64,000 bases of DNA from Ignavibacteria bacterium (lineage in GTDB: Bacteria; Bacteroidota; Ignavibacteria; Ignavibacteriales; SURF-24). The first letter of the stretch is position 1, and every line of letters starts with the position of its first letter. Location: NCBI GenBank assembly GCA_025612375.1, contig JAAXKN010000002.1, forward strand, positions 124,001-188,000, given 5' to 3'. Position numbers and translations under genes: made by a program. Positions 23,840 to 62,205 of this stretch are shown in pieces. Below the pieces are notes generated by a model. The model did no database searches and was not told the origin of the DNA. It saw nothing but the letters and a program-made list of their open reading frames with translations.

Positions 23840-24049
23840 ATGAAAGCAGGAATTCATCCCTCATACAAAAAAGCTACTGTAAGTTGTGTATGTGGCAATA
23901 CTTTTACAACCCGCTCAACAGCCGGTGACATAAAACTCGAAATTTGCGCAAATTGCCATCCGTTCTTTACCGGTAAGCAGAAACTTATCGATTCAACCGG
24001 TAGAGTTGAAAGATTTAACAGAAAATACGCTAAAACAGCAGCAAAATAA
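23840..24049 (+). CDS. rpmE: 50S ribosomal protein L31
   Basis: A 69-residue ribosomal protein, zinc-binding (C+) form, with C16, C18, C36 and C39 in SCVCGN and [12 protein letters not shown]. The start MKAGIHPSY is the family N-terminus. It has its own promoter and a hairpin behind it. Confidence 0.96.
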
Positions 24050-48144: not shown

Positions 48145-48152
48145 TAACTTTG
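48145..48152 (+). promoter_or_regulatory. Bacteroidota-type -7 box before the ATP-grasp/KamA operon
   Basis: TAACTTTG fits TAnnTTTG. The ATG at 48189 is 36 bases downstream. A TTG at 48150 falls inside this box and is therefore an unlikely start. Confidence 0.5.
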
Positions 48153-48188
48153 GGAGCAGTTATTACATCACTTAATAATAACATTCAG

Positions 48189-49262
48189 ATGAATGTTGCA
48201 ATTACATTTAATGTTAAACCCGAAGAGGAGTCTTTAACAGAACCTCCGTCTTCGAAAGAAGAATTAACCTCAGAACGATCTGTCCTGCCTCAGACTTCTA
48301 CTTCATACAATGACGTTTATGCTGAGTGGGATTCCTTTGAAACCATAGATGCTGTAAATAAGGCGCTTTCACTTTACCACAATGTAACCTTAGTTGAAGC
48401 AAATGACCTGGCTTTTGAGAAATTAAAATGCCTTAGGCCCGATATTGTATTTAATATTGCCGAAGGAATGAACGGCATTAGCCGTGAGGCACAGATTCCG
48501 GCAATGCTCGATATGCTGAATATACCATATACAGGAAGTGACCCGCTTACGCTTGCAACATGCCTGGATAAGGCAAGAACAAAAGAAATTTTATCATTTT
48601 ATAACATAAAGACCCCGCGCTTCATTACGGCTTCAGGCCTGGATGATCTTAAAGACTTTTCCTTGAGATTTCCTGTCATGATCAAGCCCGTAGGTGAAGG
48701 CTCAAGCAAGGGAATATTCGATTCTTCGTTTATCAGAGACTTTGAAGGGCTGAAGGAAGCCTTATTAAGCAACAGCAGAACATACGGACAGCCTTCTTTG
48801 ATCGAAGAATTCCTTCCCGGAAGGGAATTTACAGTAGCCATAATCGGTAATGACGATGATGCCACGGTGCTCCCGATCGTAGAAATTAACTTTAGTGAAC
48901 TTCCCGGCGGAATGGCGCCTATCTATTCCTACGAGGCAAAGTGGATTGTGGACAGAAGAGAAAATCCGCTGGAGATTTTTACATGTCCGGCCGGGCTTAG
49001 TGCTGCTCTGGAAGAGAAGATCAAGAGTGCTGCATTAAATACATATAAGACTCTGCGCTGCCGCGACTGGAGCCGTATTGACGTAAGGCTTGACGCGGAA
49101 GGTGAGCCGAACATTATTGAAGTAAACCCTCTGCCGGGTATACTGCCCGACCCGAAAGACAATTCCTGCTTCCCGAAGGCAGCACGTGCCGCAGGAATGA
49201 ATTATGAAGAGATGCTAAACCGTGTTTTATATGTTTCAGCTAAAAGGCATAACCTTATATGA
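48189..49262 (+). CDS. Ddl-like ATP-grasp ligase, first copy
   Basis: A 357-residue enzyme of the D-alanine-D-alanine ligase fold. From MNVAITFNVK it follows the Ddl plan: NIAEGMNGISREAQIPAMLD (N-domain), FPVMIKPVGEGSSKGIF (ATP lid lysine region), SLIEEFLPGREFTVAIIG, and the metal-binding end DWSRIDVRLDAEG with EVNPLPGILPD. It is not likely the wall Ddl: a second copy follows, and the partners are an acetyltransferase and an aminomutase. It probably forms an amide bond between amino acid-like substrates. It overlaps the next gene by four bases. Confidence 0.85.
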   Translation: MNVAITFNVKPEEESLTEPPSSKEELTSERSVLPQTSTSYNDVYAEWDSFETIDAVNKALSLYHNVTLVEANDLAFEKLKCLRPDIVFNIAEGMNGISREAQIPAMLDMLNIPYTGSDPLTLATCLDKARTKEILSFYNIKTPRFITASGLDDLKDFSLRFPVMIKPVGEGSSKGIFDSSFIRDFEGLKEALLSNSRTYGQPSLIEEFLPGREFTVAIIGNDDDATVLPIVEINFSELPGGMAPIYSYEAKWIVDRRENPLEIFTCPAGLSAALEEKIKSAALNTYKTLRCRDWSRIDVRLDAEGEPNIIEVNPLPGILPDPKDNSCFPKAARAAGMNYEEMLNRVLYVSAKRHNLI

Positions 49263-50317
49263 GCAGTGAAGCTAAAATATTAGTCTGTTATAATGAACCC
49301 GCAAAGGTATATAAGAACTATGTAGGGAAAAACATTTCCTCGGATGATGAGAATGTCGACATGTCTGAAACGGGAATGCTGGAGCATATAAATGATATTG
49401 TAAGCGGGCTTCAGCTTTACTTTAAGAACGTGGATACTTTTGCATTCAGTTCAGACGTTGAACGTGCCATCACCTCAATAGTCGCATATTCGCCGGATGT
49501 GATCTTTAATTTTGTGGAGTCTGTTGAGGGCAAGGCGAACTATGAAGCCTACACGGCAGGTCTTTATGAGCTCCTGGGGTATAATTATACGGGCAATGTT
49601 CCATTGTGCCTGGGGCTGTGCCTCAACAAGGCAAGGACAAAGCAGCTTCTTCAGTCCGGAGGGATCAAAACCCCGGGCTTTTACATAGCAAAGTTTAATG
49701 GTGTCATAGATCCTGAAAGTTTTGGCCTGAAATTTCCGGTTATACTGAAACTTCTTAACGAAGATGCCTCGATAGGTATCTCCGAGTTCTCGGTTGTAAA
49801 CAACATTGATGAAGTAAACAGGCGCCTCGGATTTTTATTTAAGACTTACAGGCAGGATGTAATTATTGAAGAGTTTATCAACGGCAGGGAATTCAACGTC
49901 TCGATCTTAGGAGGAGATGTCCTGCCGATATCTGAAATTATTTTCAACGGTTTACCAAAAGGTTTACCAAAGATTGTTACTTATGAAGGTAAGTGGTCTC
50001 CTAACAGTACTTATTACAAGTATACGAATCCGAACTGCCCGGCAGATATTGATGATGAGCTTAAAGAAAAGATTGAAACTGCTGCCCGGGAAGCTTATGA
50101 GCTGATGAACTGCCGTGATTATGCGAGGATAGATATTCGTCTTAGCAAAAGCGGTGTTCCGTATGTAATTGAGGTTAATCCGAATCCGGATCTCTCACAG
50201 GATGCCGGGTTTGCAAGAGCTGCAAGAGCCAAAGGTCTTTCGTATCCGGAATTGTTATACAGCATAGTCAGCCTGGCATTGGAAAGGAAGGAACATGATA
50301 CGAAAACTGAAGCCTGA
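49259..50317 (+). CDS. Ddl-like ATP-grasp ligase, second copy
   Basis: A 352-residue paralogue of the preceding ligase. Shared landmarks include NKARTKQLLQSGGIKTPGFY, FPVILKLLNEDASIGISEF, VIIEEFINGREFNVSILGG and DYARIDIRLSKSG with EVNPNPDLSQDAG. In place of the first copy's GEGSSKG lid it has NEDASIG, and PGI is replaced by PDL, so the binding pockets differ. The pair looks like an old tandem duplication now specialised for two coupling steps or a heteromer. It overlaps the GNAT gene by 23 bases. Confidence 0.85.
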   Translation: MSSEAKILVCYNEPAKVYKNYVGKNISSDDENVDMSETGMLEHINDIVSGLQLYFKNVDTFAFSSDVERAITSIVAYSPDVIFNFVESVEGKANYEAYTAGLYELLGYNYTGNVPLCLGLCLNKARTKQLLQSGGIKTPGFYIAKFNGVIDPESFGLKFPVILKLLNEDASIGISEFSVVNNIDEVNRRLGFLFKTYRQDVIIEEFINGREFNVSILGGDVLPISEIIFNGLPKGLPKIVTYEGKWSPNSTYYKYTNPNCPADIDDELKEKIETAAREAYELMNCRDYARIDIRLSKSGVPYVIEVNPNPDLSQDAGFARAARAKGLSYPELLYSIVSLALERKEHDTKTEA

Positions 50318-50765
50318 GGACAGGGATACAATAGAGGAAATGCTGCGGCGTATAGAGCAGTTTAATCCGCAGGAGGTAGAAGTTGCCATGGAACTGGTGG
50401 ATGTGGCTATACTGAGGCCCCTGCAGGAGGATTATCTCATTTATGTTTACGAGCTGGATGGAAAAGTAAACGGCTATCATTGCACCGGAAGAAGACCTCT
50501 AACTGATGGAGTTTTTGACCTTTACTGGATTGTGGTGGATCCATCCATCCAGTCGAAAGGAATAGGGCGTCAGCTGTTGAAGCATGCCGAGGGCATTGTT
50601 TCAGAGAACAAAGGCAGGTGGCTTCTGGCTGAGACCTCCTCAAAAGAGAGTTATCTGGCTACAAGGAGTTTTTACATGAAAAACGGCTATTCCGTTGTGG
50701 CAGAAATAAAGGATTTTTATTCGTTAAAAGATAACCTGGTAATCTTTGGTAAGTACTTTCAATAA
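50295..50765 (+). CDS. GNAT family N-acetyltransferase
   Basis: A 156-residue acetyltransferase. The acetyl-CoA loop is visible as WIVVDPSIQSKGIGRQLLKHAE (Q-x-x-G-x-G). It begins MIRKLKPEDRDTIEEML inside the preceding ligase and lies 17 bases before kamA. AblB-type enzymes acetylate beta-lysine made by KamA, but AblB is longer; the chemistry here is inferred from neighbours. Confidence 0.85.
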   Translation: MIRKLKPEDRDTIEEMLRRIEQFNPQEVEVAMELVDVAILRPLQEDYLIYVYELDGKVNGYHCTGRRPLTDGVFDLYWIVVDPSIQSKGIGRQLLKHAEGIVSENKGRWLLAETSSKESYLATRSFYMKNGYSVVAEIKDFYSLKDNLVIFGKYFQ

Positions 50766-50782
50766 TTTAAAGGGTTAATTAA

Positions 50783-52015
50783 ATGGAACTATGGCAACAA
50801 ATGCTTAGAGACAGTGTCCACACCGTGGATGAGCTCGTCGATAAATTTCAAATCGATAGAGCAACTGCCGAACAAATAGACCAGTTTTTTCAGGCCCGAA
50901 TCAATCCTTATTACATGAGTCTGATAAAGTATCCTGGAGACCCGATCTGGAAGCAATGCGTTCCCGACAGGGTTGAACTGGAAGACTTCGATGCCTTTGA
51001 GGACCCGCTTAATGAAGATGCTATGAGCCCTGTTCCAAACATTACCCACCGCTACCCTGACCGCGTACTGTTTCTTGTGACAAGCCAGTGCGGAATGTAT
51101 TGCAGATTCTGCACAAGAAAAAGAAAAGTTGGTAATTCCGACAAGATTTCCATGAAAGGGCTGGAATCGGCCTTCAAATATATCGAATCGCATACTGAGA
51201 TCCGTGACGTCATCCTTTCGGGAGGCGATCCTCTGATGCTCACAGACTTAATGCTGGAGAAAATACTTGCACGCCTGCGTCAGATACCTCACGTGGAAAT
51301 AATCCGCATAGGCACCAAAATGCCATGTGTGCTTCCGCAGAGAATTACACCAAAACTCTGCAACATGATAAAAAAATACCACCCTGTTTATATAAATACA
51401 CATTTTAACCATCCCTGGGAAATTACCGCTGAAAGTTCACGCGCATGCCAGATGCTGGCCGATGCAGGATGCCCCGTGGGATGCCAGACCGTACTGATGA
51501 AAGGCGTTAATGACGACCCCGACGTAATTAAGGAACTGATGCATAAACTCCTTATGATCAGGGTTAAACCTTACTACCTCTATATGGCAGATGAGACCAA
51601 GGGGGCAAACCACTTCAGAACATCCATCAGAACGGGCATTGAGATCATGGACAAATTAAGGGGACATACGAGCGGACTTGCAATTCCCTACTTTGTAATT
51701 GATGCCCCGGGCGGCGGCGGAAAAATTCCGATTCTGCCGGAATATGTCCTTCATCATGACGATGAAAAAATTATACTCAGAAACTATAAAAATCAGATCT
51801 ATGTCTATAAGGATGCTATAGATAAAAACCATCCCGAAGTAAAACACCCCGTGGAGGTGCCAGCTAAGGAAAAAGTACACCTTGCTGTACCCGTAAACGG
51901 GAATGGTAAAAACGGTAATGGAAAGAATGGAAACGGTAAAAATGGCAAGCATCCTGAAGAGATAACTAAAATTTCATCAAAAGAAATTAAGGAGATGACG
52001 ATTATAGACAACTGA
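50783..52015 (+). CDS. kamA: KamA family radical SAM aminomutase
   Basis: A 410-residue PLP and radical-SAM enzyme that moves an amino group from C2 to C3. The [4Fe-4S] motif is C103-x3-C107-x2-C110 (SQCGMYCRFCTRKR). The stretch YMADETKGANHFRT keeps the Asp that in lysine 2,3-aminomutase binds the side-chain amine, and FVIDAPGGGGK keeps the second one; glutamate mutases replace both, so lysine or another diamino acid is favoured. The C-terminal zinc cysteines of clostridial enzymes are absent. Instead the tail has a GKNGN repeat. It is the last gene of the operon. Confidence 0.9.
   Translation: MELWQQMLRDSVHTVDELVDKFQIDRATAEQIDQFFQARINPYYMSLIKYPGDPIWKQCVPDRVELEDFDAFEDPLNEDAMSPVPNITHRYPDRVLFLVTSQCGMYCRFCTRKRKVGNSDKISMKGLESAFKYIESHTEIRDVILSGGDPLMLTDLMLEKILARLRQIPHVEIIRIGTKMPCVLPQRITPKLCNMIKKYHPVYINTHFNHPWEITAESSRACQMLADAGCPVGCQTVLMKGVNDDPDVIKELMHKLLMIRVKPYYLYMADETKGANHFRTSIRTGIEIMDKLRGHTSGLAIPYFVIDAPGGGGKIPILPEYVLHHDDEKIILRNYKNQIYVYKDAIDKNHPEVKHPVEVPAKEKVHLAVPVNGNGKNGNGKNGNGKNGKHPEEITKISSKEIKEMTIIDN
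51896..51949 (+). repeat. 15-bp tandem repeat coding GKNGN units in KamA
   Basis: Asn-Gly-Lys-rich units repeat three to four times with silent differences between copies (aat/aac, ggt/gga), giving a flexible basic tail between residues 372 and 389. Confidence 0.85.
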
Positions 52016-53914: not shown

Positions 53915-55060
53915 TTATCCTCGTGTGGAGTTTATGAGGTATTGTAAGATGCCCGGGAACATTTTCCCCGCGGCATACGCAGGAAGAGATAATGCGGAAT
54001 TAAGAACAGCTTTTTGGATAAGCCCTGCGTGCCTGATGCGCCTGGAGAACGTCCTCTTCCACATCAGGCGGTAGAATTCCTCTGCATGGGGCACGCTTAA
54101 CTCCTTTCTGTGCAATTTTATCAGTGCCTCCGAGGCGAGCCCTGCGCTTTGAAGTGCCATTGCAATGCCGTCGCCGGCAAGGGGTGCAATTACACGCGCC
54201 GTGTCCCCGGCCATGAAGACGCCATGTTCAACAGAATTCCTTCTCCCGAAATAAATATTCCCGGTTCCGTAAACAGGAAGTGAATCTATGAGGTCAAAGA
54301 TTCCGGGAGAGAAGATTTCCTTAAAGCTGCCATTTTGAATTAAGAGATCCTTAAGGTGCATTTTGGGGGAGGCCTCATATCCCCTTCTGTCTTCAAGAAA
54401 GCAGACTGTTAATATTCCGTTATCCACCCTGTTTACCCCGCAGTAGATTCCGCTTCCGGCATAAATATGAATTTCATCTTGCGGGAATCCTGGAGCGTAC
54501 TTTGCCGGGATGTGCAGCTTTACCCCGTTAATGCGGCTTTTTATTCCGGCGAAATCGCGGTTGAGGACCCGGTCCAGTGGGCTCTGCCTGCCATAGGCTG
54601 CGATCAGATGGGATGCATGGAGTTCTTTCTGGCTTTCCCCGGAAAGTGCAAGGTGGAAGAGCTCATTAAGGCGCTTTACATCTTTTACTTCCATAGGCTG
54701 GAAGCATGTTGCCCCTTCCTTAACGGCCTGAGTTAAAAGAAAGTTATCAAAGGCTCCGCGGCTTAAGCCGTATGCTGTAAAGAAGAGCGGGGCTTTAAGC
54801 GTCTTTCCGTTCTTAAATATAAATTTCAGGCTATGAATTGGATTTGGACAAAGTGCCAGGAAGCCATCCCAAAGCCCCAGCTCCTGCAATATAGCTACAG
54901 CCTCTTTTGAAATAAATTCCCCGCAGAGTGTCTCTCTGGGGAAGATTTTCTTTTCAATAATTGAGACATTAAGTCCTGCCCTTGCGAGGTGCAGGGCTGA
55001 GGTTGAGCCTGCGGGGCCTCCGCCAATAACTGCGGCATCAAATATTTGTGTAGTGTCCAT
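53915..55060 (-). CDS. FAD-dependent oxidoreductase of the type III PKS cluster
   Basis: A 381-residue flavoprotein of the geranylgeranyl-reductase/halogenase-like superfamily. It has the nucleotide-binding GGGPAGSTSALHLARAG, IIEKKIFPRETLCGE, and the second FAD motif GVFMAGDTARVIAPLAGDGI. It lacks the lipid-reductase motif seen in the 19.7-kb flavoprotein. As last gene of a three-gene cluster it probably oxidises or hydroxylates the polyketide product. Confidence 0.85.
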   Translation of the reverse strand: MDTTQIFDAAVIGGGPAGSTSALHLARAGLNVSIIEKKIFPRETLCGEFISKEAVAILQELGLWDGFLALCPNPIHSLKFIFKNGKTLKAPLFFTAYGLSRGAFDNFLLTQAVKEGATCFQPMEVKDVKRLNELFHLALSGESQKELHASHLIAAYGRQSPLDRVLNRDFAGIKSRINGVKLHIPAKYAPGFPQDEIHIYAGSGIYCGVNRVDNGILTVCFLEDRRGYEASPKMHLKDLLIQNGSFKEIFSPGIFDLIDSLPVYGTGNIYFGRRNSVEHGVFMAGDTARVIAPLAGDGIAMALQSAGLASEALIKLHRKELSVPHAEEFYRLMWKRTFSRRIRHAGLIQKAVLNSALSLPAYAAGKMFPGILQYLINSTRG

Positions 55061-55079
55061 TTTTATCCTGCAGCCTGGA

Positions 55080-55763
55080 TTATTCTTTTATGCAGTATAT
55101 GAGCCACCTGAAGGCCCATTTGCGCCTTATATGGACCCTGCATTGTTTTATTCCGGAAAGAATTGCCATAAGCTCACTTTTGATAAATCCTCTTCTTACA
55201 GAAAGCGGCCCGTCATTTTTCACCATCCGGCTTTTGGAAAAGAGCTGAGTCAGGATTTTAATTCCGATAAGGGCAAAGACCGAACGCCTGAGGTCGTTTA
55301 TTATTATTCCATGTCTGGCAATTAAACTGCACTGCCTTAAAACCGCCGCCATATCCTCCTCTTTGAAGTGATGAAAAAATAGAGAGGCGTGGATTATGTC
55401 AATTGTACTAACTTTGAAGGGGAGTTTTTGGGCATCGCAGCAGACAACCTTTGCCTCCGGGTGTAGCAATTTAGTATAACGGCATGCCCGGATATTCATG
55501 TCGGCACTAATGGGCTCCACGTTTCTGCCCTTTATCTTCATCTTAAAAAACAGGTCGGATCCTCCCGATCCTATGTCCAGAATTAGCGGAGTATTCTTAA
55601 AAGTGCAGGCCCGGTTTATAGCTGATAAACCAGCACGGCTTACAGAATTTCCCCCAAGGAAGAAGTTAATAACTTGTAACTCATGCAGTGCAAGGTCCAG
55701 GCGTTCATCAGTAATCGAAAGATCGTCAATTATTTCTTTGGCATAACTTCTTTTAAGAAGCAT
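55080..55763 (-). CDS. SAM-dependent methyltransferase of the type III PKS cluster
   Basis: A 227-residue class I methyltransferase. Motif I is LILDIGSGGSDLFFKM (63-70), followed by ADMNIRACRY and VVCCDAQKLPFKVSTIDIIH. Its start codon shares a base with the polyketide synthase stop. It most likely methylates the polyketide, at O or C. Confidence 0.85.
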   Translation of the reverse strand: MLLKRSYAKEIIDDLSITDERLDLALHELQVINFFLGGNSVSRAGLSAINRACTFKNTPLILDIGSGGSDLFFKMKIKGRNVEPISADMNIRACRYTKLLHPEAKVVCCDAQKLPFKVSTIDIIHASLFFHHFKEEDMAAVLRQCSLIARHGIIINDLRRSVFALIGIKILTQLFSKSRMVKNDGPLSVRRGFIKSELMAILSGIKQCRVHIRRKWAFRWLIYCIKE

Positions 55764-56854
55764 CAGACTCCTCTGAAGAAAGCCGCTTCCATTGTAAGTC
55801 CGGGCCCGAAGGCAGCAGCCAGGAGTATATCCCCTTTTTTTATTTCGCTGTTTTCAAGCAGTTCTTTCATGACAAATAGTATTGAGGCCGAAGACATATT
55901 GCCGTAGTTTTTAAGAACGGTTCGTGAAGGTGTCATTTCTCTATCTGTCAGGCCCAGTCCCGTCTGCATGGCATCCAGAATTGCGCGTCCTCCGGGGTGA
56001 AGGGCCCAGTGTTTAATTGAGCTTTTACTGAGGTTCATGCCGTCAATAATTCTTAAGAGGGCCGGGGCGGCCTCTTTGAGTATAATATTCGGAAGTTCGG
56101 AAGAAAGCAGCATTTCAAAGCCGTAGTCGCCAATTTTCCACCCCATGAGCTCATCTGAGTTATCGAAAAGTACCGACCTGGTTGCCAGGAGTTCCAGGCG
56201 GGGATTCCGGGGTAAGGTGCTTAAATCAGAGAACAGTGCGGCAGCGCATCCGTCGGCAAAAATTATGTTTGAAAGGATGTTATCCCGTGAAGCTTCTGTC
56301 TGAAGGTGCAGGCTGCACAATTCCACCGATACCAGGAGTGTATTTGGTGCAGGGTTCCCCTTTTGGGAATTCATGGCTTCAAGTACTGAAGTAAACCCTA
56401 TAATTGAAGCAGCGCATCCCATAAAGCCTATATTCGTTCTTTGTGTGCAGGCCGGCATTCCGAAGGTTTTCATCAGGTGGTAATCCAGCCCGGGAGCAAA
56501 AAAACCAGTGCAGGAGATAGTAATAAGGCGCCCGATATCAGAAGGCTTAAAGCCTGTCTTCTCAAAAAGGTCTCCCGCGGCTTTTACAGTCAGCTCTTTT
56601 GACCACTTCTCATACTCCTGCATTCTTTGCCTGGTGCCGGGGTGCGGGACGTCTTTTGCATAAAATCTCTTCTGGGGATTATCTTCGGCGTCGGGCACAA
56701 CAACGTACCTTGAGTCAATGCCTGAGTGTGCGGCAGCCATATCTATCATTCTGGCAACTGCAGGCCGTTCAGCCATTCTTTTTTTTAGTTCCTCAGCCGC
56801 CTTTGACTGGCTTACTTTGAACGGGGGAAGTGCGGTTGCAATATCTATCAGCAT
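55763..56854 (-). CDS. Type III polyketide synthase (chalcone/stilbene synthase family)
   Basis: A 363-residue homodimeric ketosynthase that extends an acyl-CoA with malonyl-CoA without a carrier protein. The catalytic triad is complete: C147 (NIGFMGCAAS), H286 (ALHPGGRAILDA) and N317 (NYGNMSSASILF). The CHS-type start (ATALPPFKVSQ) and ISCTGFFAPGLDYHL are also present. With the next two genes it forms a typical small bacterial alkylpyrone or phenolic-lipid type cluster; the starter unit is unknown. Confidence 0.93.
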   Translation of the reverse strand: MLIDIATALPPFKVSQSKAAEELKKRMAERPAVARMIDMAAAHSGIDSRYVVVPDAEDNPQKRFYAKDVPHPGTRQRMQEYEKWSKELTVKAAGDLFEKTGFKPSDIGRLITISCTGFFAPGLDYHLMKTFGMPACTQRTNIGFMGCAASIIGFTSVLEAMNSQKGNPAPNTLLVSVELCSLHLQTEASRDNILSNIIFADGCAAALFSDLSTLPRNPRLELLATRSVLFDNSDELMGWKIGDYGFEMLLSSELPNIILKEAAPALLRIIDGMNLSKSSIKHWALHPGGRAILDAMQTGLGLTDREMTPSRTVLKNYGNMSSASILFVMKELLENSEIKKGDILLAAAFGPGLTMEAAFFRGV

Positions 56855-56970: not shown

Positions 56971-57003
56971 AAACAAAAAAGCCGGTCTTTTCAGACCGGC
57001 TTT
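56971..57003 (-). terminator. Terminator of the cytochrome gene
   Basis: On the minus strand aaagccggtct and agaccggcttt form an 11-bp stem with a four-base loop, followed by ttttttg. It lies 26 bases after the cytochrome stop. Confidence 0.92.
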
Positions 57004-57028: not shown

Positions 57029-59158
57029 TTACTTTGTAAGAACCATCTTCTTAGTCATGTTGAAGTTCTGACCGTTCTGGCCAACGCCTTCGATGCGGTA
57101 GAGATAGATACCGCTGGCAGCCATTGAACCGCTCATGTCTCTTCCGTTCCATGTAGCAGTATAGTTGCCGGGAACGAATTCACCGTTAACCAGTGTAGCA
57201 ACCAACTGGCCTACGATGTTGTAAACATTCAACTGAACACGGGCTGCAGAAGGAACGCTGAATGCAATCTGTGTTGAGGGGTTGAACGGGTTAGGATAGT
57301 TCTGGCTTAAATCGAATGATTTAGGCATTTCGTTATTTCTAACTGCAACGCCAGTTGGATTAAAGCTAGCAATAGCTGCTCTTAAAATGGCAGTTGTATA
57401 TTTAGTATTGTGCATACCGCCAGATTTATCATTCAGAACATACAGGTAGTCGTAAAGAGCGCCCATAACTTGTTTGCTCAGTTTTATTCCTGCTGTATCA
57501 GCAACGTTAGCAATAACATCACCGTTCTTCTGAGGCAGTTTAGCTTTCAGTGTAGCCATCATGTTGGCAACTTCAGTCTTAACGCCTTCAACTTTACCGT
57601 TACCATCATAATCCAAGCCCTTGATATCACCGAATTCTTCAATAGAAGAACCATGGCATCTCTGGCAGATTTCAACTCTATCCTTACCCTCGCTGGTAGT
57701 CATAGTCCATTCATGGTTAGTGATTGTAGCGCCGGCTTCAGTACGTTCCTGCATATGGCAGGTAGCGCAAGCATCATCCATGAAAGCGTGAGTTGTGTAG
57801 TTATCCATAGTCTGTCCAAACTGATAAGCATTCTGTCCGAAGTACATATCAGCCTGTGGGTTTCCGTGAGGGCCATAGTGAGCTGCAAATCCGTATAATG
57901 GAGCCTTGTCTGTAACTTTAGTAGCAACGTCATAACGTGAGCTATGGCAGTTCATACAGATAGCGCCTTTACCGCCGCCGTTAATGACGAATCCGTTCTT
58001 AAGAGGAGGAGTTGACATGGTACGGATCTGATTCGGGTTGCCGTTTCCGTGAGGATCGTGGCATGCAGCGCAAGTTAAAGCAACGTTACCTTCTTCAACA
58101 CCATTAGTGCTGTACATGGATTTATCTGTCATAGCAGGTTTGCCTTTATCAACCCATTTCTGGAATGCAAGACCGCTGTGGCAGGGATAGCAGCCAGTCT
58201 GGGCTGTGTGTGAACCGTTCTCCCACATAGCGTGAGCTGAAGCGTTGTAATAGTAACCGAGTCTGTGATGAGTCATAGCGTCGTGGCAGGTTAAGCAGAC
58301 GCCGGCGTCGATTGAGTAAGAGATCTTGTTCACGTTGCCGTTATGATCAGCGCCAGCGCCGTGGCAGCTTTCGCATCCGATAGTGGCAACGCCTTCCATG
58401 TTAGGGTCCATTGCTTTCATTGAGTTCCAGTTGGTCAGATCACCAGAAGTTGTCCAGTAGTCACCGCCTCTGTATTCAAGAGTCTTGTACCATGTGGTAT
58501 CGAAACCTGATTTATGAGCAAGGAAACCGAAGTTACCGTTATCAAGTGTCTGGTCATAGCCCTCTGTATGGCACTTGAAGCAATTGCCGCCATAAGCGCC
58601 TTTGCCGGCTTCAACTTCCAGCTGACCAGAAATACCGCGTTTGAAAATAGTAGCGTGGTTTGTCTGTTTCCATGCATCATACTTATCCTTGTGGCAGGTA
58701 CCGCATCCGGGCTGGATATTGCCCTCGGCGTCAAGGAGCCTGCTATAGAAAGTACCCATAAAGGTGCTGACAAAGAAAGTATCTATGGCAGTTTTTCCGG
58801 CACCTTCCAGTTTCACAATATAACGTCCGATAACATCGGGAGTGAAAACGGTCGGCTTTCCAGCTGCGGAAATAAAATTAGCCTGTGAGCCATTAGGTTT
58901 TTCAACGAAAGACCATGTAAGGCTGGGAACTGTACCGGTTGTGTCGGCATTTAAGTAAATGTTCTGACCCTTTCCAACAGTACGAAGGCCGGTGTAGACC
59001 TGGAATGTACCGGCAGGAGCCTTACCAGGAGCATAAAAGGCAGTAAGCCCGGTAGAGGACATAGGTACTCTCTTAATCTTTACTGTCTGAGCGAAGCTTT
59101 CCATTGTAAAGAAGCTTGCCAGCAGTACGATCGTACATAAAAGTATCGATCTTTTCAT
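57029..59158 (-). CDS. Secreted nine-heme cytochrome c with T9SS sorting domain
   Basis: A 709-residue extracellular or surface electron carrier. A signal peptide (LLCTIVLLASFFTMESFAQ) leads into an Ig-like region (30-135). Nine CxxCH heme sites follow, at residues 152, 193, 262, 288, 323, 363, 401, 464 and 498. A DYDGNGKVEG calcium-type loop is at 517. The last about 97 residues are a type IX secretion C-terminal domain (SQNYPNPFNPSTQIAFSVP; GIYLYRIEG). The start at 59158 is set by ggagg eight bases upstream. Exact reaction unknown; extracellular electron transfer or nitrogen-compound reduction is possible. Confidence 0.93.
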   Translation of the reverse strand: MKRSILLCTIVLLASFFTMESFAQTVKIKRVPMSSTGLTAFYAPGKAPAGTFQVYTGLRTVGKGQNIYLNADTTGTVPSLTWSFVEKPNGSQANFISAAGKPTVFTPDVIGRYIVKLEGAGKTAIDTFFVSTFMGTFYSRLLDAEGNIQPGCGTCHKDKYDAWKQTNHATIFKRGISGQLEVEAGKGAYGGNCFKCHTEGYDQTLDNGNFGFLAHKSGFDTTWYKTLEYRGGDYWTTSGDLTNWNSMKAMDPNMEGVATIGCESCHGAGADHNGNVNKISYSIDAGVCLTCHDAMTHHRLGYYYNASAHAMWENGSHTAQTGCYPCHSGLAFQKWVDKGKPAMTDKSMYSTNGVEEGNVALTCAACHDPHGNGNPNQIRTMSTPPLKNGFVINGGGKGAICMNCHSSRYDVATKVTDKAPLYGFAAHYGPHGNPQADMYFGQNAYQFGQTMDNYTTHAFMDDACATCHMQERTEAGATITNHEWTMTTSEGKDRVEICQRCHGSSIEEFGDIKGLDYDGNGKVEGVKTEVANMMATLKAKLPQKNGDVIANVADTAGIKLSKQVMGALYDYLYVLNDKSGGMHNTKYTTAILRAAIASFNPTGVAVRNNEMPKSFDLSQNYPNPFNPSTQIAFSVPSAARVQLNVYNIVGQLVATLVNGEFVPGNYTATWNGRDMSGSMAASGIYLYRIEGVGQNGQNFNMTKKMVLTK

Positions 59159-59569: not shown

Positions 59570-59604
59570 GAGAAAAACTCTGCCGGCGTATTGGCCGGCA
59601 GAGT
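59570..59604 (-). terminator. Terminator of the Nramp-like gene
   Basis: actctgccgg (59577-59586) pairs with ccggcagagt (59595-59604). On the minus strand the stem is followed by tttttctcc. It begins five bases after the Nramp stop. Confidence 0.88.
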
Positions 59605-59609
59605 AAAAT

Positions 59610-60866
59610 TCAAAAGTTTATGATCGGTTCGAGTGTGAGTATAATGGTCAAAATTACCAGTATTGTTATTGTTGACCATCCTATAAAATTCTTAAGCGGG
59701 GTATTTGTAAGTGCCCCCATGATTTCTTTCTTATTGACAATGATCATCATGGAGATCAGTACTACGGGCAGAAGAATGCCGTTTATCACCTGTGTCCAGA
59801 TTGTGATCTCAATTAATGGAGCGCCCGGGATCAGGATTATTAGCACCGAAATAATGATGATTGAGGTAAAGAAAGTGTAGAATTCAGGGGCCTCTCGCGG
59901 TTTTTTATCTATTCCTGCTTCAAAGCCGAATGCCTCGCAGATATAAAATGCTGTTGCAAGGGGCAGAATTGTAGCGGCAAAAATGGAGGCAATAAAAAGG
60001 CCGAAAGCAAAAAGCTGGCTTGCAAAGGCTCCGGCCAGAGGGGCCAGGGCTTCTGCGGCATCCTTGGCGTCGTTGATCTGTATGCCCTTCTGATGCAGTG
60101 TGGCGCCGCAGGCAACAATTATGAAAAATGCAACAGCTACCGTTGCAATACAACCGATAACCACGTCCCAGAGTTCGTACTTGTACTCATCGAGCTTGAT
60201 GCCTTTTTCAATTACAGCCGACTGCATGTAAAACTGCATCCATGGGGCAATTGTGGTACCTACGATACCGATCACCATCCCGATAAAACGGGTATCCATA
60301 TCAAATGATGGCCTTGAAATGGCTGTCCCTATCGCAGCCCAGTCGGGCTTGGCCAGCACGGCGGAGACCACGTATGAAAGCAGGAAAACACTGAAAACGA
60401 GAAATATTTTCTCGGCCGACTGGTAGGTGCCGTGAACCACAAAGAACCATACCAAAAGTGCAGAAACCGGTACCGAGATATACTTACTGACCCCGAATAT
60501 CTGGAGGCTTCCTGCAACACCTGCAAATTCAGTTGTCGTGTTGCCTATATCGGCTACAATAAGGCCCAGGAAAATAAAAAATGTAACCTTTACGCCAAAA
60601 TTCTCGCGAATCAGGTCGGCCAGTCCTTTGCCGGTCACTATACCCATTCTGGCATTCATCTCCTGAACTACCAGCAGGACTACAAAGGCTGGAATTAAGG
60701 TCCACAATAGCCTGTAACCATACATTGCGCCGGCAACCGAGTAAGTTGTTATTCCTCCGGCGTCATTATCAACACTCCCGGTAATAATACCGGGTCCCAG
60801 TATGCTTAAGAATACCAGCAGTGTAGAAATCCACCCTTTTTTCTTTCCGTTTTTTTCGACAGTCAG
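59610..60866 (-). CDS. Nramp-family divalent cation transporter, unusual start
   Basis: About 418 residues with eleven helices. The first ATG in frame (60725) lies inside the first conserved helix, because the frame continues upstream through GPGIITGSVDNDAGG and TYSVAGA, the Nramp metal-site region. No ATG, GTG or TTG occurs further up. Either a CTG at 60866 is used (ggagg nine bases before it), or an ATG at 60882 is the start and a 7-base A run (60850-60856) carries an extra base. The sixth-helix MPH motif of Mn/Fe transporters is replaced by APW, as in Nramp-related magnesium transporters. It follows the MgtE-like sensor gene. Confidence 0.8.
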   Translation of the reverse strand: MTVEKNGKKKGWISTLLVFLSILGPGIITGSVDNDAGGITTYSVAGAMYGYRLLWTLIPAFVVLLVVQEMNARMGIVTGKGLADLIRENFGVKVTFFIFLGLIVADIGNTTTEFAGVAGSLQIFGVSKYISVPVSALLVWFFVVHGTYQSAEKIFLVFSVFLLSYVVSAVLAKPDWAAIGTAISRPSFDMDTRFIGMVIGIVGTTIAPWMQFYMQSAVIEKGIKLDEYKYELWDVVIGCIATVAVAFFIIVACGATLHQKGIQINDAKDAAEALAPLAGAFASQLFAFGLFIASIFAATILPLATAFYICEAFGFEAGIDKKPREAPEFYTFFTSIIIISVLIILIPGAPLIEITIWTQVINGILLPVVLISMMIIVNKKEIMGALTNTPLKNFIGWSTITILVILTIILTLEPIINF

Positions 60867-60987: not shown

Positions 60988-62205
60988 TTATCTTTCCTTC
61001 AGGATTTCGTACATAATATCGTTAATAACAACGTTTCCCACCAGGTTCATTTCCTTGTCCACAATAGGAATTGCAAACAGGTTGTATTTTGTAACGATCT
61101 TGATCAGTTCCTCAATTTCATCATTATCATACATAAAGATTATATCCTTATGCATAATGCTTTTCAGCGTTACGTTGGGGTCGGAGATAATAATATCTCT
61201 TAAGGAAACTTTACCAATCAGCTTATTTTTCTGGTTTGTAATGTAAATATAGCTTGTTGTTCCCTCTTCGGGCTTCTGTTCCCTTATGATATTTATAACC
61301 TGTCCCACGCTTGTGTCGCTTCTGAAGGCAACAAACTCCGTGCTCATAAGGCTTCCGACAGACTTTTCATCGTACTCCATGAGTTCCCTAACCTCATCGG
61401 AAGCTTCTTTTTCCATATTGCTTAAGAGTTCTTCAACCCTTTCCTTGTCCATTCCGTCCAGTATGTCTGCCACCTCATCGGCAGGCATTTCTTCCAGGAT
61501 ATCGGCGGCCTTATCGGTAGAGAGGTTCTCCAGAACTTTAACCTGTGTTTCCTCTTCCATTTCCTCTAAAACGTCGGCGCCGCGGGCCGTATCCAGGTGT
61601 GCGAAGATGGTCATACCGGTCTTCGTGTCAAAATCCTCAATAATATCGGCCAGGTCCGACGGGTGCAGCGTGGAAAGTTTATTATATGTCTTTGAAAGGA
61701 CTATATTTTCACTTCCCGAGAACACGGTTTCAACGTCATTCCACAAAATGAGCTTTGAGGGGACTTTAATGCCGAGCTTAAGGATCGGTTTTGCAATTCC
61801 AAGGCGTCTTAAAAGTCCCTCGGTGCCGATATCTACGGCGACCACAAACATTCCGGCAGAAAGAAGAGCAAGCCTGATATCATTAACGCGGACGACCTTG
61901 CGTCCGTTGACGTCAATAATCTGTTTATCCATAACCTGCTTATTGAGCATTATGAGGTCCTCTATAGGGATTTCCTCCAATTTTGCGCAGGAAAGGTGGT
62001 ACTGACCGTGTTGTTTGGTAAGGGTAATATAGTCCCAGTTAATGAATTTTATTCCGTCTTTGGTTTTCACCTTAGCGGCTCTCACGCGCGGATTTCTGAC
62101 ATCGTTAGTAACTGCCACATCTTTGAGCTTACCAATAATCTGGTAATCGTGAGAAAAGATATTAATGTCTAGTATTCTGCTGAAATCAAAACTAATAAAC
62201 TGCAT
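60988..62205 (-). CDS. Soluble MgtE-type sensor: PRC-barrel, MgtE N and CBS domains
   Basis: A 405-residue cytoplasmic protein without membrane segments. Residues 1-145 look like two PRC-barrel modules (SFDFSRILDINIFSHDYQII; KQIIDVNGRKVVRVNDIRLA). Residues about 195-285 are an MgtE N domain made of helical hairpin repeats (LHPSDLADIIEDF; STDKAADILEEMPADEVADI). Two CBS domains follow (EYDEKSVGSLMSTEFVAF to the end, YEILKER). The MgtE channel domain is absent. In MgtE these parts sense magnesium and close the pore; here they are probably a separate regulator of the adjacent Nramp-like transporter. ggggagg precedes the ATG by five bases. Confidence 0.88.
   Translation of the reverse strand: MQFISFDFSRILDINIFSHDYQIIGKLKDVAVTNDVRNPRVRAAKVKTKDGIKFINWDYITLTKQHGQYHLSCAKLEEIPIEDLIMLNKQVMDKQIIDVNGRKVVRVNDIRLALLSAGMFVVAVDIGTEGLLRRLGIAKPILKLGIKVPSKLILWNDVETVFSGSENIVLSKTYNKLSTLHPSDLADIIEDFDTKTGMTIFAHLDTARGADVLEEMEEETQVKVLENLSTDKAADILEEMPADEVADILDGMDKERVEELLSNMEKEASDEVRELMEYDEKSVGSLMSTEFVAFRSDTSVGQVINIIREQKPEEGTTSYIYITNQKNKLIGKVSLRDIIISDPNVTLKSIMHKDIIFMYDNDEIEELIKIVTKYNLFAIPIVDKEMNLVGNVVINDIMYEILKER

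Follow-up and report, generated by a model that had tools for sequence, protein, structure and literature searches.

The window, by which we mean the whole 64,000-nucleotide stretch analysed (positions 124001-188000 of contig C2 in a 5.23 Mb host genome of 140 contigs), encodes a nine-heme cytochrome. We interpret it, with a probability of roughly two in three, as a terminal oxidoreductase of the OcwA nonaheme type that ends a chain of extracellular electron transfer and that type IX secretion (T9SS) brings to the outer surface of Ignavibacteria or releases. On profile matches and a predicted structure, the heme core is OcwA-like, with a c554-like tetraheme part followed by an NrfA-like pentaheme part, and it is joined, class-wide, to a T9SS tail, a union for which we found no counterpart and which we regard as new.

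Nine heme sites and a sorting tail in one polypeptide

The nine c-type heme sites of the cytochrome are conserved. Ten CxxCH-compatible DNA matches occur in the window against 2.7 expected, a number reached in none of 100 shuffles, and nine of them lie in frame inside a single open reading frame with exact coordinates, stop codon counted in (Table 1), at residues 152, 193, 262, 288, 323, 363, 401, 464 and 498. The tenth match lies outside the cytochrome, at 23945-23959 (+). All nine Cys-Cys-His columns are kept throughout a 35-member alignment (35/35), and 48 of 54 aligned relatives carry nine plain CxxCH motifs; the remaining six are spacing variants, each at site 1 and one at site 9 too.

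Table 1. Features of the cytochrome, its surroundings in the window and the host porin-cytochrome-like cluster (window positions unless a contig is named)
Feature	Residues	Position	Strand	Basis
Nine-heme T9SS-tailed cytochrome	709 aa + stop	57029..59158	-	ORF, ATG start, nine CxxCH
Sec signal peptide (predicted)	1-24	59087..59158	-	By eye; helix 2-17 in model
Ig/PKD-like beta domain (predicted)	25-135	58754..59086	-	Model strands 25-131; weak match to a presumably PKD-type chain, E 0.0098
c554-like tetraheme part, hemes 1-4	149-300	58259..58714	-	PF13435 and OcwA layout
His297-His298, at the His-His of OcwA open heme 2	297-298	58265..58270	-	Profile alignment and OcwA paper section
NrfA-like pentaheme part and three-helix bundle, hemes 5-9	301-600	57359..58258	-	PF02335, VIA, model helices
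EF-hand-like loop	516-527	57578..57613	-	D516 51/54, D518 48/54, G521 51/54, E524 47/54
T9SS type A sorting domain	612-709	57032..57325	-	TIGR04183, PorU tail match, 54/54 relatives
Terminator-like hairpin, 11 pairs, 3' of the cytochrome gene		56978..57003	-	
Terminator-like hairpin separating the cytochrome from the upstream Nramp gene		59577..59604	-	
Porin-cytochrome-like cluster		Host contig C11, 7.4-14.8 kb (L106 7400-14780)		Six genes listed

The predicted Ig/PKD-like domain has conserved G57, D108, G111, Y113 and G135. Pfam places cytochrome families on both halves of the core, PF13435 (c554) over residues 152-203 (29.7 bits, cut-off 20.8) and PF02335 (cytochrome c552, NrfA) over residues 455-600 (31.3 bits, cut-off 24.1), and the helices of the three-helix bundle span 526-540, 562-577 and 585-597 in an AlphaFold2 model of the whole protein (pLDDT 86.2, pTM 0.78).

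The C-terminal tail scores 29.3 bits against TIGR04183, the NCBIfam model of T9SS type A sorting domains, for which the curated cut-off is 23. It falls below the Pfam cut-offs of PF18962 (23.8) and PF13585 (20.4), each set at 27, and lies above that of FlgD_ig, a fold matched by such tails. Model residues 614-709 superpose on the tail region of P. gingivalis PorU (VIA; Z 10.6, rmsd 2.4, 92 aa), and the TIGR04183 match recurs (E<=0.001) in relatives with identity down to about 31%. The host has a gene for SprA (a frame of 2360 aa), two for PorU-like proteins (C30:2-2911 and C12:111458-113890, one at a contig end) and others for PorV-like proteins, one adjoining a PorU, all over cut-off, as well as cytochrome c assembly genes in three places. 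Sorting-tail matches were found in about 150 places of the genome; 214 candidates were collected and 150 of them scored, in almost every case over about the last 190 residues. PF12081 gave no match to GldM in the host genome, so the T9SS motor is unaccounted for; a divergent motor is possible. Export by T9SS, as the sequence-only reading had claimed from nine CxxCH sites and a sorting domain in one polypeptide, is thus well supported by sequence, and the absence of core genes that would have told against it was not observed, SprA, PorU and PorV being encoded even though GldM was not found. The missing GldM would suit a non-functional tail and a cytochrome that remains periplasmic and carries electrons in a general way, a scenario we consider scarcely credible against the retention of the tail in every aligned relative, the three secretion components and the many tail-matching places in the genome.

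The heme core compared with OcwA and multiheme enzymes

A profile built from the 54 relatives matched 6i5b best in the PDB (E 1e-29), then 6qvm (E 2.8e-23), followed by octaheme nitrite reductase, NrfA and MccA. VIA re-alignment of the model placed 6qvm (Z 15.7, rmsd 3.8, 345 aa) and 6i5b (Z 15.1, rmsd 4.2, 338 of 483 aa) in a tie, ahead of NrfA (Z 13.2-14.1) and MccA (Z 8.6). FlgD and sorting-domain structures stand at the top of the Foldseek E-value list for the PDB, NrfA (1oah) is at rank 46 (E 0.0088) and OcwA is absent among the best 50 matches listed; because matches to the sorting tail led that list, the case for an OcwA fold rests on the profile search and the VIA re-alignment. The structure prediction that had been suggested as a check thus yielded an OcwA/NrfA-like fold, from a model predicted without hemes. 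The tied best fold match, 6QVM, presumably OmhA, is the undecaheme S-layer cytochrome of Carboxydothermus ferrireducens, which differs from the present protein in its eleven hemes, its S-layer location and its lack of T9SS.

Structure 6I5B is OcwA (TherJR_2595), a nonaheme, dimeric cell-surface terminal reductase of Thermincola potens that acts on Fe(III), electrodes and shuttles and reduces oxyanions as well; its c554-like tetraheme part continues into an NrfA-like pentaheme part. The two proteins are alike in having nine hemes, a c554-like followed by an NrfA-like part, a C-terminal three-helix bundle and, as predicted for the present cytochrome, a His-His pair by the heme-2 pocket and a surface role. 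Whereas OcwA sits on a Gram-positive cell wall, the cytochrome has in addition an Ig-like domain at its N terminus, a T9SS tail and an EF-hand-like loop, the last without a counterpart in the aligned OcwA stretch. According to PMC7829351, OcwA belongs to a subclade with nonahemes of Gram-negative bacteria, which may include the present family. The earlier statement that no characterised family has this layout holds, as far as we found, for the union of core and T9SS tail and fails for the heme core, which matches OcwA.

At residue level, H297-H298 align in the profile alignment with the heme-2 His-His of OcwA at chain positions 252-253, equivalent to 281-282 in the paper if its numbering is shifted by +29, an offset that fits the heme-5 pair too. 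H298 is found in 41 of 54 relatives and H297 in 21. OcwA has six distal His and one Met as ligands, with hemes 2 and 5 open and each accompanied by His-His and with heme 9 ligated by His/Met. The heme-5 His-His aligns near H427-Y428, where the pair is not plainly kept (column 427: H in 22 and R in 18 of 54). H457 is invariant (54/54) and adjoins, in the profile alignment, the Met-Tyr of OcwA that precedes heme 8; because it stands at about the place of that Met-Tyr, heme 9 of the cytochrome may be His/His-ligated, unlike that of OcwA. Altogether eight extra histidines (168, 272, 309, 370, 431, 457, 482 and 583) are each kept in 53-54 of 54 relatives, and they show no simple fit with the six distal His and one Met.

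Several of the matched proteins are enzymes acting on small molecules, and the cytochrome might itself be a surface or secreted enzyme for nitrite, hydroxylamine, sulfite or tetrathionate, serving respiration or detoxification and not a mineral conductor; the chemistry would then take place at the cell surface, on the NrfA/MccA-like core with its open hemes. NrfA, octaheme nitrite reductase and MccA are among both its profile and its fold matches and have in common with it the arrangement of five hemes and the helices at the C terminus (Z 13.0-14.1, or 8.6 for MccA); OcwA, by the description above, is also an oxyanion reducer; and R379 is kept in 54 of 54 relatives and R408 in 53, the latter three residues past the heme-7 His, at what we take to be the position of the active-site Tyr in NrfA. 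NrfA, the octaheme nitrite reductases and MccA are periplasmic enzymes. They have five or eight hemes compared with nine here, the best matches are mineral-facing surface cytochromes, the CxxCK motif usual in NrfA is absent in all 66 family members counted (0/66), and the host already encodes, as judged by eye, NrfA, NrfH and an octaheme tetrathionate reductase-like protein. We therefore find the small-compound enzyme unlikely compared with an OcwA-type terminal oxidoreductase, and NrfA identity as such was rejected (five hemes with the usual CxxCK versus nine sites and no CxxCK). The octaheme tetrathionate reductase-like multiheme protein is followed by a cytochrome b561-like gene on host contig C14 (genome G000, L148 853-3098; by eye).

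A cytochrome of the extracellular matrix was also weighed, released by T9SS into a biofilm and linking into a conductive or electron-storing layer. T9SS cargo can be either released or anchored, OcwA is a dimer, and the Ig-like domain and calcium-type loop could aid assembly; no sign of filament-type packing was seen, OmcS being matched weakly (E 0.028, 35 positions), and we hold this alternative to be quite improbable.

Distribution, gene neighbourhoods and a porin-cytochrome-like cluster

Residues 1-595, with the tail removed, were searched against 395 genomes of the phylum at a threshold of 1e-10. Family matches were found in 59 genomes, in seven of them to the second half alone and in 52 with longer relatives; all but one (G135) belong to the class of the host. 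Of the 38 genomes that share the host's order but belong to other families, 33 have relatives. The closest named relative is 77% identical over the full length (MAG Ignavibacteria bacterium bin-C14), and another copy is encoded on host contig C9 (41% identity, nine CxxCH, T9SS tail). The phmmer search gave 66 hits, of which 54 were aligned; the 12 omitted were of half length, were second copies, were unusually long or were truncated by a contig end; the L111 sequence includes a run of N, kept unchanged. SprA is encoded in 59 of 59 family genomes versus 303 of 395 overall, a comparison confounded by relatedness, to which we give little weight because the whole class carries SprA.

Since a hairpin separates it from the upstream Nramp gene, the cytochrome gene probably has its own transcript; an operon with its neighbours was rejected, the gene being flanked by two terminator-like hairpins. 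Upstream lie genes for an Nramp-type metal transporter (59610-60725, -) and an MgtE_N-CBS protein (60988-62205, -), which in L031 are 96-97% identical versus 77% for the cytochrome. On the other side, 53915-56854 (-) encodes in succession a type III polyketide synthase, a methyltransferase and an FAD oxidoreductase, likely a small-molecule operon. Among the loci compared, L031, a close relative, is the only one to share the Nramp and polyketide synthase neighbours, and distant (24%) relatives of the MgtE_N-CBS gene occur in L117 and L120 too; none of these neighbours was taken as a partner. Farther off, 48150-52015 (+) holds in succession, by eye, two ATP-grasp genes resembling D-Ala-D-Ala ligase, one GNAT-like gene and one radical SAM gene resembling lysine-2,3-aminomutase.

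No cytochrome partner gene stands beside the window cytochrome, which counts against the reading favoured here. Across 60 family loci, another gene with at least three heme sites was present in the fetched stretch in 14 and none was nearby in 46. A frequent arrangement joins a gene for 13, 16 or 19 hemes to cytochrome b561-like and NapC-like six-heme genes, another being a set of Rieske, cytochrome b and 11-heme genes; seven of these neighbours were checked by Pfam, and cytochrome b561/NapC-like or Rieske/cytochrome b genes were among them. CysS and other frequent neighbours (about 17 of 60 loci) were rejected as partners, as they look like general synteny.

A search for porin-cytochrome partners elsewhere in the host, which the sequence-only reading had advised, turned up a porin-cytochrome-like cluster. 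It lies on contig C11 and comprises an Rrf2-like regulator (by eye), a protein that combines 18 hemes with a cytochrome b561 domain, a c554 protein with four hemes, a predicted barrel of 427 aa, a 14-heme protein and a six-heme lipoprotein (assigned as such by eye). Neither Pfam nor NCBIfam gave a match for the 427-aa protein; its model (pLDDT 84.4) is a barrel of about 22-24 strands that aligns with outer-membrane barrels at Z 16.5-20.5, in most rows over nearly the whole length. Relatives of the barrel occur in 78 of 119 genomes of the class, and a gene with at least 11 hemes lies near the barrel gene in 29 of 30 loci fetched, the exception being a locus that ends early. Among the matches listed, 42 genomes could be tallied without control for relatedness: 27 have both the barrel and the cytochrome family (one of these, G078, through a half-length relative only), five the barrel alone, ten neither and none the family alone. 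PMC7399161 and PMC6137239 treat porin-cytochrome complexes and extracellular electron transfer in Ignavibacteria, the class of the host, whose cluster is similar. The outer cytochromes of the host conduit look like lipoproteins, whereas the nine-heme protein is a predicted T9SS cargo encoded elsewhere. Extracellular electron transfer, suggested from the sequence at the outset, thus gains indirect support from this cluster and from nearest structures that are surface cytochromes of iron reducers.

A further connection comes from six half-length relatives in the class (L190-L195; 341-402 aa, 5-6 CxxCH), which have a lipobox and a collagen-like linker by eye, give no match to the TIGR04183 tail (0 of 6) and are akin to the second half of the cytochrome, with R408 (6/6), H431, H457, H482 and H583 kept. 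In two genomes, G078 and G251, such putative lipoproteins are encoded inside the barrel cluster, a link between the conduit and the second half of the fold that does not depend on the window gene. On balance, we lean slightly towards a division in which T9SS would be the dedicated surface route of the terminal reductase in Ignavibacteria, while the redox module would also travel as a half-length lipoprotein of the conduit cluster. In L191-L194, half-length hexaheme lipoproteins are encoded beside a 390-430 aa protein with one CxxCH that ends like an outer-membrane barrel, together with a monoheme protein and one resembling Rieske or cupredoxin proteins (all by eye), possibly a different conduit.

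Proposed route and significance

The pathway that we infer, along with where the protein resides, how its hemes are ligated, its electron partners, the direction in which electrons flow and its substrate, would begin with Sec export and attachment of the nine hemes in the periplasm. The folded cytochrome would then pass through SprA with the C-terminal domain as its guide, and PorU would cut off this domain, leaving the protein anchored or released. Electrons from the quinone pool would reach it by way of inner-membrane cytochrome b/multiheme modules and the outer-membrane porin-cytochrome conduit, and its nine-heme chain would pass them to minerals of Fe(III) or Mn, to humics or electrodes, or to acceptors in solution. 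Small oxyanions could bind at hemes 2 and 5, which are predicted to be open.

For the known outer-surface cytochromes of Gram-negative bacteria, lipoprotein export and type II secretion are regarded as the usual delivery routes. We found no literature joining type IX secretion to multiheme cytochromes, in a collection that includes a minority of subscription papers, which makes this a weak indication that none exists; in the Melioribacter paper (PMC5492636), term searches found none of multiheme, nonaheme, extracellular, sorting or secretion. If true, a T9SS-delivered OcwA-like reductase would represent a third delivery route, conserved through a class of sediment and bioanode bacteria, and would link the Gram-positive OcwA lineage to a Gram-negative group. 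The combination of NrfA/c554-type hemes with TIGR04183 provides a searchable signature. The cytochrome would also give the iron and electrode respiration of Ignavibacteria a specific candidate for its surface step, suggesting an unnoticed way for these sediment bacteria to set redox wiring on their surface.
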